Source: a virus. Taken from it: DNA of 32,621 nucleotides. Shown one piece after another: positions 492 to 12,502 of this stretch (its first letter is position 1; every line of letters starts with the position of its first letter). The stretch is taken from IMG/VR virus record IMGVR_UViG_3300046804_002248, positions 1 to 32,621 of that record. One strand, given 5' to 3'. The translations under genes and the position numbers were made by a program. The notes below the pieces were generated by a model. That model made no database searches. It saw only the letters and a program-made list of their open reading frames with translations, and was not told where the DNA came from.

Positions 492-521
492 AAATAAAAG
501 ATCCCCCTGTTTCCAGGGGGA
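492..521 (-). terminator. Rho-independent terminator
   Basis: A 7-bp stem (502-508 with 515-521), G/C-rich, with a 6-nt loop, followed on the minus strand by TCTTTTATTT. It ends leftward transcription from the 645-2687 operon, and would form the 3' end of the candidate small RNA. Confidence 0.75.
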
Positions 522-641
522 CTTTAAATGAATAGGGCTGCTAGTCAAACGAAAGGAATTAAGTAAACACTGCCTTACTTAGCGACTTGGTAAAAACCTA
601 GATAGCCGCACCCTATTGCTGCAACTGGCATTTAGCCAGTT
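502..641 (-). ncRNA. Candidate small RNA with anti-ribosome-binding-site segment
   Basis: On the minus strand, AATAGGG (617-611) can pair with CCCTATT (537-531), enclosing a GGT-TTTT-ACC mini-hairpin and an AAGTAA/TTACTT hairpin (580-561). A single-stranded linker, 560-547, reads AATTCCTTTCGTTT. This is the exact complement of the AAACGAAAGGAA stretch before many genes of this arm. A hairpin (641-623) lies at the 5' side and a strong terminator closes the 3' end. A TATAAT at 649-644, overlapping the upstream stop codon, could start it; otherwise it is a processed 3' UTR. The structure was folded by eye. The alternative is an inverted relic of a gene start. Confidence 0.45.
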
Positions 642-644
642 ACA

Positions 645-1049
645 TTATACCAAAACAAACGCTTCTGCGTATTTCTCACAGAATGTGTCAAGGTCCATGG
701 TGAAGATTGCTTCATTCTTCATGCCACGTACTTTGTTGTCCTGATTACGGAAATCGTCCTGCTCATGAAGACTGAATGTCTTCTGAACAAAATCGACAAT
801 AGCAATCTTGTGCTCGTTGTCACCGATTTCATTTACATGTAGGCCCCATCCAGTTTCCATATTCCATTGGTCCCCAATGAGGTTGCTAACAGCGATACGT
901 GTTGCATATGCTGTATCATTCCAGCGTGGCTTGGCCTTTGCTACAGCCTCAGCCAATTGGGCCAACATCTGATGTCCCGCCCAGTGTCCATACAGTACAA
1001 TTGTGTTTCCGTTCGGTTGTACAAATCCGAAGTTTGCTCTATCTCCCAC
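645..1049 (-). CDS. Conserved actinophage protein of unknown function (GDRANFGF type)
   Basis: The protein opens with GDRANFGFVQPNGN and has an LYGHWAGHQM segment, a WNMETGWGLHVNE block and a KVRGMKNEAIFTMDL block. This pattern is familiar from many actinobacteriophage genomes, with no known function. No signal or membrane segment is seen; it is likely a small soluble cytoplasmic protein. I prefer a GTG start at 1049 (134 aa) because AAAGGATGTAAA sits correctly before it. An ATG at 1064 gives 139 aa but has no ribosome-binding site. It overlaps the stop of the preceding gene, so translation is probably coupled. Confidence 0.75.
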   Translation of the reverse strand: MGDRANFGFVQPNGNTIVLYGHWAGHQMLAQLAEAVAKAKPRWNDTAYATRIAVSNLIGDQWNMETGWGLHVNEIGDNEHKIAIVDFVQKTFSLHEQDDFRNQDNKVRGMKNEAIFTMDLDTFCEKYAEAFVLV

Positions 1050-2687: not shown

Positions 2688-2711
2688 TATATTCCTTTCG
2701 ATAATGGGTTT

Positions 2712-3991: not shown

Positions 3992-4023
3992 TTTTTATCC
4001 TTTCGATAGTTAGTTATAACCCG

Positions 4024-4768: not shown

Positions 4769-5191
4769 TTACAAGTATCTAGCGATAGCGTTGTAGGTTG
4801 AAGTTGAAACTACTTCCTCGTCCGTCATCTTTAGGATACGGATAGCATTTTCAATTTCCTCTACCATTTCCTTATACTGCCAATCGTGGTAAGTATCAAA
4901 GTCTTTGGTAGGTTCAGCAGGTAGGTCAATACAACCTTTAGGCAAGTTGAAATCAACATTTATCATACCATTGTAGCGAAGGCTTGCGGTCAAGTCCTCT
5001 GCCTTTGCGATAGCACCGAGAGCAAGTTTAGCAACATCTTTAGACCACTTTTCGTGAGCCTTTGTGAAGCGAGCCTCGTTCTCTGCCTGATTAGCCTTAT
5101 CCTTTTGGATTTGTGCTAACTTGTTTTCCAAAGCCTTGATAACTTTGGTTGTAGCGATTTTTACGCTAATGGATTTTCCATTTCTAGCCAT
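4769..5191 (-). CDS. Conserved phage hypothetical protein, 140 aa
   Basis: The N-terminal half is a long basic helix, probably coiled coil (about residues 14-65, rich in Lys, Ala, Glu and Gln), followed by a short beta segment and an acidic helical C-terminus ending in the YNAIARYL type of tail. The ATG at 5191 follows CAAACGAAAGGAAAAACAA, the full consensus ribosome-binding stretch. Promoter P5 precedes it. Function unknown; a structural or scaffolding-like soluble protein would fit the coiled coil, but this is a guess. Confidence 0.65.
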   Translation of the reverse strand: MARNGKSISVKIATTKVIKALENKLAQIQKDKANQAENEARFTKAHEKWSKDVAKLALGAIAKAEDLTASLRYNGMINVDFNLPKGCIDLPAEPTKDFDTYHDWQYKEMVEEIENAIRILKMTDEEVVSTSTYNAIARYL

Positions 5192-5221
5192 TTGTTTTTC
5201 CTTTCGTTTGGTTAGAGAGAG

Positions 5222-5263: not shown

Positions 5264-5416
5264 TTAGTTAGATACGCTTGTCCAGCGTTCTGTTCCATTT
5301 ACATCAAGAAGCACACGATTTACACCTGACGGGTGATTATCTACTGCCTTGATTATACCGACTACACCTGATTTCTCAGTTGTAAAGGTTTGTCCGATTT
5401 CTAGCGTTGTTGCCAT
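5264..5416 (-). CDS. Hypothetical 50-aa protein
   Basis: A short frame starting MATTLEIGQTFTTEKSG that looks like a small beta-barrel, with repeated short strands (GVVGIIKAV, NRVLLDV, TERWTSV). The ATG at 5416 has the consensus AACGAAAGGAAAAATAA before it and promoter P6 upstream, so this is a real gene despite its size. The stop lies 8 bp from the inverted repeat of P5. Function unknown. Confidence 0.65.
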   Translation of the reverse strand: MATTLEIGQTFTTEKSGVVGIIKAVDNHPSGVNRVLLDVNGTERWTSVSN

Positions 5417-5441
5417 TTATTTTTCCTTTCGTTAGGGGTCT

Positions 5442-6049: not shown

Positions 6050-6078
6050 TTATTTCCTTTCGTTTGCGTGGTGGGTAG

Positions 6079-6356: not shown

Positions 6357-6388
6357 TATTTTTTCCTTTCGTTTGTCGTTATGAAGCG

Positions 6389-7518: not shown

Positions 7519-7543
7519 TAGTTTCCTTTCGTTAGAGGGCTCC

Positions 7544-8064: not shown

Positions 8065-8094
8065 AGTTATTTCCTTTCGTTGGGATACGCAGCA

Positions 8095-8160: not shown

Positions 8161-8205
8161 CCCGTAACGACACGCCCGACCCCGTGTCTTTTGCGGGCGC
8201 AGCTG

Positions 8206-8280
8206 CGATGCGTATGGGATTTGAACCCATGATCTTCACAGTGACAGTGTGATGATTTAACCAAACTAATCTAACGCACC
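8206..8280 (-). tRNA. tRNA-Asp(GTC)
   Basis: A complete cloverleaf on the minus strand, 75 nt without CCA. The acceptor stem GGTGCGT/ACGCATC pairs at all 7 positions (one G-U). The D stem is GATT/AATC, the anticodon stem TCACA/TGTGA, the anticodon loop CTGTCAC (anticodon GTC, Asp), the variable loop 5 nt, and the T stem ATGGG/CCCAT with a TTCAAAT loop. The discriminator is G73, as expected for Asp. CCA is not encoded. It lies 10 bp after the stop of a 41-aa gene and is probably cut from that operon's transcript. The 65-aa frame across it is not a gene. Confidence 0.9.
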
Positions 8281-8968: not shown

Positions 8969-8998
8969 TTTTAGTTTTCCTTTCGTTTATGAAATCCG

Positions 8999-12480: not shown

Positions 12481-12498
12481 ATGTTTCATGTGAAACAT
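12481..12498. promoter_or_regulatory. parS-like sequence 2
   Basis: ATGTTTCATGTGAAACAT, identical core to the copy at 11453-11472 and again preceded by a TAGTCRACTA sequence (12462-12471). It overlaps the -35 area of the HNH gene. Confidence 0.6.
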
Positions 12499-12502
12499 CT
12501 GC

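Follow-up and report, generated by a model that had tools for sequence, protein, structure and literature searches.

The minus strand of the viral DNA analysed here (a window of 32,621 nucleotides, the whole of the stretch) carries, past the last gene of a leftward operon, a folded sequence complementary to a ribosome-binding site (RBS) that recurs before many genes of the same arm. The question raised by this locus is whether it encodes a small RNA (sRNA) acting on those translation starts or, as a preliminary description of the sequence allowed, is the inverted relic of a lost gene start. We suggest that it encodes a trans-acting antisense sRNA which would simultaneously mask the RBS of some ten genes. 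That the RNA itself is real we hold to be nearly certain; that it acts in this manner is, on the sequence evidence assembled here, likely.

A check of the window found every minus-strand element where the preliminary description had placed it. The pairing of AATAGGG with CCCTATT is present and corresponds to a conserved stem, P1; the strong terminator said to follow the folded structure is there as a hairpin; and the TATAAT at 649-644, reported to overlap a stop codon, does overlap that of the upstream gene (647-645) and forms part of an extended -10 promoter, TGGTATAAT (Table 1). We place the ends of the RNA from the positions of this promoter and of the terminator. Discrete, equipped with a promoter and terminator of its own and distant from its predicted targets, the locus has the layout of a trans-acting antisense sRNA gene. 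Two elements had to be redrawn: the inner AAGTAA/TTACTT hairpin is present but is not the conserved part, pairing fully in 15 of 60 distinct relatives, and the antisense stretch, although an exact complement as claimed, is not an unpaired linker but caps a third conserved stem, P3, as its apical loop. The minus-strand fold has a z score of -5.5, a value reached by 0 of 200 shuffles, against -1.3 for the plus strand, and an RNA or gene on the plus strand was rejected, given the weak fold and the lack of an open frame after the plus-strand motif. No family in Rfam 15 matches the RNA region at E<=1, and by ARAGORN and Rfam the region is neither tRNA nor tmRNA; the sole tRNA in the window is a tRNA-Asp (GTC) gene at 8205-8280, minus strand, within the target gene block.

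Table 1. Features of the sRNA locus and predicted target sites in the window.
Feature	Position	Strand	Basis or remark
Extended -10 promoter TGGTATAAT of the RNA	644..652	-	overlaps upstream gene's stop codon; sequence
Predicted small RNA, ~140 nt	495..637	-	promoter and terminator positions; fold z -5.5
5' hairpin ACUGGC..GCCAGU	621..643	-	relatives often have a hairpin here, of AATAGGCC..GGCCTATT type
Conserved core, P1, P2 and P3 around a three-way junction	530..618	-	covariance model match 82.1 bits, E 1.5e-18; covariation
P1 5' strand AAUAGGG, paired with 537-531	611..617	-	both-side changes at four pairs
P2 5' strand GCGGCU, paired with 587-582 AGUCGC	604..609	-	99.2% of cells paired; third pair GC31/AU16/CG12/UA1
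Junction UAAGUAA joining P2 to P3, nearly invariant	575..581	-	
P3 5' strand GCAGU, paired with 545-540, A bulged at 542	569..573	-	compensated variation among relatives
Anti-RBS loop UUCCUUUCGUUU, complementary to AAACGAAAGGAA	547..558	-	exact complement; core CUUUCGUU in 79/79 loci
Intrinsic terminator hairpin	501..522	-	hairpin and T run in 53/60 distinct relatives
Predicted target RBS UAUCGAAAGGAA, gene starting 2687	2692..2703	-	duplex -13.7 kcal/mol
Predicted target RBS UAUCGAAAGGAU, DUF932 gene starting 3991	3997..4008	-	duplex -11.3
Predicted target RBS, exact complement, gene starting 5191	5198..5209	-	duplex -19.1
Predicted target RBS, gene starting 5416	5423..5434	-	duplex -14.9
Predicted target RBS, exact complement, gene starting 6049	6054..6065	-	duplex -19.4
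Predicted target RBS, exact complement, gene starting 6356	6363..6374	-	duplex -18.7
Predicted target RBS, gene starting 7518, overlapping GP88 gene	7523..7534	-	duplex -16.0
Predicted target RBS, gene starting 8064	8071..8082	-	duplex -15.1
Predicted target RBS, exact complement, gene starting 8968	8977..8988	-	duplex -16.3

Conservation of the RNA was followed from two anchors. Close relatives of the upstream 139-aa gene in IMG/VR contigs gave 79 loci with downstream sequence, 60 of them distinct, and in all 79, picked by way of the neighbouring protein, CTTTCGTT lies on the same strand within 230 nt of the stop of that gene, with the loop core CUUUCGUU in every one. The second anchor was the DUF932 gene, itself a predicted target; at 67 of the 68 loci with enough downstream sequence the loop is present in an RNA context. 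The preliminary description had held that relatives keeping the genes and losing the linker would speak against its reading, and, with one exception among the 68 (L209, see below), the relatives in these two sets keep both. MAFFT with RNAalifold alone misaligned the loop and returned few covarying pairs, and anchored parsing with a covariance model was used instead. The parsing resolved three stems, P1 (nnnnGG/CCnnnn), P2 (GCnnCU/AGnnGC) and P3 (GC and a stem that varies, a bulge preceding GCAGCC). Of their cells, 82, 98 and 82%, respectively, are paired, as opposed to 22-54% when slid. The covariance model found a single match in each of 66 first-round contigs, at 47.7-83.3 bits, the next best reaching 17. 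On the 60 sequences, 96.9% of cells are paired, 8 of 15 pairs have changed on both sides, and the covariation score of 0.459 compares with 0.138 for shuffled alignments (0/500) and at most 0.108 for slid ones; the compensatory changes in related phages that had been proposed as a check are hence found. Indeed, the P3 stem occurs as AG/CU, GUC/GAC, AUCGG/CCGAU and ACGGUUC/GAACCCGU, and the loop CUUUCGUU is unchanged among these variants.

The RNA is present in exactly one copy in each of eight whole contigs of 104-115 kb. Of the 60 distinct relatives, 44 have a TGn followed by a -10 hexamer upstream and a further 3 have only TATAAT; 13 RNAs are without a recognisable promoter of their own. A blastn search of the RNA region against cultured phages gave no match, the genome contigs searched with the 139-aa gene for a host gave none either, and no described RNA of this kind was found in the literature searched. 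We also note a second conserved non-coding stretch (GCCC..GAGGGTA.CATAT..TTTACG..GTCAA..TTTCCTGGAAATT) at 380-495 on the minus strand, downstream of the terminator, which follows the RNA in 53 of the 60 distinct relatives and leads to the next gene's promoter. Two TATAAT promoters on the same strand (361-390 and 2712-2741) have a palindrome, GACAAATGTC, at or near -35, possibly an operator shared by the block. Elsewhere in the window, at 12481-12501 on the plus strand, an HNH-like gene begins ATGTTTCACGTGAAACAT, containing TGTTTCACGTGAAACA, which we take to be the bacterial parS (ParB-binding) consensus.

The complementarity of the loop to the 12-mer AAACGAAAGGAA is exact. The preliminary description had this match as perfect before seven gene starts; it is so before the genes starting at 5191, 6049, 6356 and 8968, while before those starting at 5416, 7518 and 8064 the first base, and that base alone, is changed. 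With up to two mismatches, the 12-mer has 18 matches in the window where 4.1 are expected, a number attained in 0 of 100 shuffles. The loop core CUUUCGUU is complementary to the extended RBS AACGAAAGG, the consensus of which is AACGAAAGGA, so that an exposed and conserved seed faces the translation starts of its predicted targets, as in known trans-acting antisense sRNAs. At the best sites in the window the predicted loop:RBS duplexes reach about -15 to -19 kcal/mol, compared with about -9.8 for the pairing of the RBS with the anti-Shine-Dalgarno (anti-SD) sequence.

This extended RBS belongs to one part of the genome. In the window it precedes left-arm genes only, the structural genes of the right arm having plain AGGAG-type sites, and some genes in the target block are without it. 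Across 20 related contigs there are up to 14 copies of AACGAAAGG on the strand of the RNA, nearly always near it (the distance to predicted target starts reaches about 10 kb in some cases), and most contigs have a single copy on the opposite strand, namely the RNA itself. Among the xGAAAGG starts of six whole contigs of 107-115 kb, x is C in 60 of the 81 that share the strand of the RNA and are no more than 12.5 kb from it, against 0 of the 22 elsewhere (Fisher p = 7e-11); non-C sites occur both near the RNA and elsewhere. Given the 16S ends of actinobacteria, it is A, not C, that would pair with the anti-SD at this position. The C of CGAAAGG is therefore not explained by 16S pairing, but it matches the loop of the RNA.

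That selection acts on the loop sequence is indicated most strongly by its repeated relocation, as read from the relatives, at least four other hairpins of which carry it. In one contig (L075) a simple GC-rich hairpin with the loop stands where the RNA would otherwise be; in others (L215/L217/L220, L219/L221/L223 and L322) a hairpin of this type has the loop at a second place; in L207/L208/L015 a loop hairpin is additional to the usual RNA; and in the L219 group UUCCUUUCG is located in the P2 loop of the scaffold. With the same loop placed in different hairpins in several lineages, what is functionally conserved appears to be the loop rather than the scaffold. The sole exception among the 68 loci of the second anchor, L209, keeps four AACGAAAGG sites and lacks the anti-RBS loop, which there reads AUUCCCAG. 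The target sites themselves vary with the loop: in contigs whose loop reads UUCCUUUCG, 73% of the sites per contig have A at position 9 of the RBS, compared with 34% (p = 6.5e-6) in contigs whose loop reads ACUUUCG or UCUUUCG, loops that have nothing to pair with this position. On the tree this amounts to one main change and at most a few others, and with so few independent changes we regard the covariation as supporting evidence, not as proof. The base just before AACG covaries with the loop only weakly, in a single contrast.

The family extends beyond these lake-water contigs. Cultured Streptomyces Cluster BE phages, Gordonia phage Yvonnetastic and lake phage DSL-LC01 carry distant relatives of the 139-aa gene, and in Streptomyces phage Yaboi each of the two terminal repeats is matched by the covariance model, at 27.4 bits (E 9e-5). 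The Yaboi homologue (L180, 787-855) follows the last gene of the leftward terminal-repeat operon and adjoins a TTGACA-TACACT promoter; by blastn the homologous region is present in 92 Streptomyces phage records, and in nearly all records listed it is not annotated as RNA. Yaboi, NootNoot and their relatives in Cluster BE thus share the P1/P2/UUAAAUA/P3 layout, the place at the end of an operon and a promoter of their own. Unlike in the phages studied here, the P3 loop is not anti-RBS: six of the seven Streptomyces phage sequences compared have a covarying P3 with the loop AWGGUCGG, and the seventh, Annadreamy, diverges further. A search of the Yaboi loop, GGUCGG, against the starts of the terminal-repeat genes showed no enrichment. 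Since these homologues have a different loop, the scaffold is older than, or separate from, the anti-RBS loop, and may have another or older function. DSL-LC01 (L177) is a metagenome-assembled lake phage (PMC10611076). It has 20 copies of an extended RBS, ACGAAAGGA, mostly [AG]ACGAAAGGACAA, at record positions 24015-43361; all lie in this cluster of 19 kb, and the rest of the 129-kb genome has none. A search of DSL-LC01 for the antisense partner found no convincing copy, the only match being an 8-mer at chance level, and it follows that the extended RBS can exist without a detected RNA.

We propose that a host-type extended -10 promoter of its own would drive transcription of the RNA, with read-through of the upstream operon as a probable second source, and that the P3 loop of the RNA would present 5'-UUCCUUUCGUUU-3' to the extended RBS AACGAAAGGA of about ten genes of the non-structural block. 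Pairing in the cell would block binding of the 30S subunit, and the whole block would thereby be repressed together. As the RNA is encoded at the end of the block that it would target, this repression may serve as a temporal shut-off or as negative feedback. The loop being the exact complement of an RBS used only there, it is probable that one RNA could shut down translation of the entire block in one step. The retention of the loop, the covarying stems, the confinement of the RBS to the block and the reappearance of the loop in other hairpins all favour the trans-acting reading that the preliminary description had put forward.

Other readings of the locus have to be weighed against repression of the block by RBS masking. 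An inverted relic of a lost gene start would explain an exact RBS-like 12-mer on the plus strand, but no open frame follows that motif, the plus strand folds with a z of only -1.3, and the covariation of the minus strand already contradicts such an origin; compensatory changes, together with a promoter kept in 44-47 and a terminator in 53 of 60 relatives, rule it out, and we assign it a negligible probability. Alternatively, the RNA could be conserved for an unrelated function of its scaffold, its complementarity to the RBS being incidental, as might be thought from the Streptomyces phages, which keep the scaffold with a different loop, and from DSL-LC01, which has the RBS motif without the loop. 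We consider this very unlikely: the chance that a conserved 8-nt loop would match the one block-specific motif is, by a rough estimate, about 1 in 10,000, and the loop persists when simple hairpins replace the scaffold.

It is also conceivable that the RNA acts mainly on the host, its CU-rich loop masking the Shine-Dalgarno (SD) sequences of host mRNAs, with the phage RBS as a sponge or an incidental match; the loop does contain UCCUUU, the complement of the generic SD core AAAGGA. The match nevertheless runs on over AACG past the SD core, this extension is found only in the phage block beside the RNA, and position 9 of the phage sites tracks the loop, and we think a host target improbable. 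Finally, the sign of the regulation is not readable from sequence, and the RNA could activate rather than repress, for instance by opening a structure in the leader or by protecting the mRNAs of the block, the leaders of which are A-rich and look unstructured. Against activation, the SD itself lies within the pairing, and known sRNAs that pair there generally act as repressors; moreover, there is no obvious leader hairpin upstream of the motif to be opened; we leave this reading a slim chance.

In kind, the proposed RNA is a trans-acting anti-SD sRNA, and its novelty is the combination, in a phage, of such an RNA with an RBS code private to the phage's own gene block. Bacterial anti-SD sRNAs with C-rich loops include the UCCC-motif sRNAs of S. 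aureus and the CCUCCUCCC "cuckoo" RNAs of Rhodobacter and the Rhizobiales. These too are structured sRNAs with a pyrimidine-rich loop that pairs with the SD regions of several mRNAs, but they address the generic SDs of chromosomal mRNAs and not a private extended RBS of a phage block; the UCCC motif of the S. aureus type is absent from the conserved core, CUUUCGUU. In phage T4, RegA acts as a repressor at the translation starts of many early phage genes, one phage factor for many genes as proposed here, but RegA is a protein that acts through degenerate sites, whereas the present candidate is an RNA with exact complementarity.

A closer likeness is to the start-associated sequences (SAS), which Pope et al. 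(2011; PMC3203893) described in Cluster K mycobacteriophages and which also occur in Cluster EF Microbacterium phages (PMC7302621). There, as here, a motif located at the RBS recurs some 10-20 times, in a subset of mostly non-structural genes, and is conserved past what 16S pairing would account for, although the consensus is GGGATAGGAGCCC or GGGAAAGGACCCC instead of AACGAAAGGA, and about half of the SAS sites have upstream 17-bp inverted repeats (ESAS). Pope et al. noted the conservation past 16S pairing, left open whether the partner is RNA or protein, and recorded a single opposite-strand SAS copy in several K1 genomes (PMC3203893); the literature we found reports no trans-acting partner for SAS. 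In the K1 phage Anaya, we find that the opposite-strand copy falls within a non-coding gap of 385 bp and that the RNA read from it forms the loop of a hairpin, GCGCGG[CCUCCUAUCC]CCGCGC (L126, 29850-29925). The loop of this hairpin is kept in CrimD, Niklas and Amelie, and an antisense SAS loop is absent from the K phages Marshawn, SirPhilip, Yuna, Keshu and Pixie. Two candidates were rejected: in the EF phage AnnaSerena there is no antisense copy, the 9-mer found being in a terminator-like stem, and the opposite-strand SAS of the K2 phage ZoeJ is the ordinary RBS of a leftward gene. The SAS are thus a possible parallel, borne out only in part of Cluster K, and we offer them as a lead and not as a finding. 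More broadly, actinobacterial phages might mark a gene block with a private extended RBS, which a cognate antisense RNA would recognise as its address, with the Cluster K SAS as another instance and the K1 hairpin as its cognate RNA; we put this forward as a tentative and rather doubtful generalization.

If the proposal is true, the RNA would be a counterpart of RegA-like translational repressors of phages, in that one small RNA would control a gene block by way of a translation start signal common to its genes and specific to the phage, and it would supply a testable hypothesis for the question that SAS raise, namely why RBS in actinobacterial phages are conserved past the need of the ribosome. 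This family of lake-water phages carries a previously undescribed RNA family, and the relatives in cultured Streptomyces phages open that family to laboratory study.
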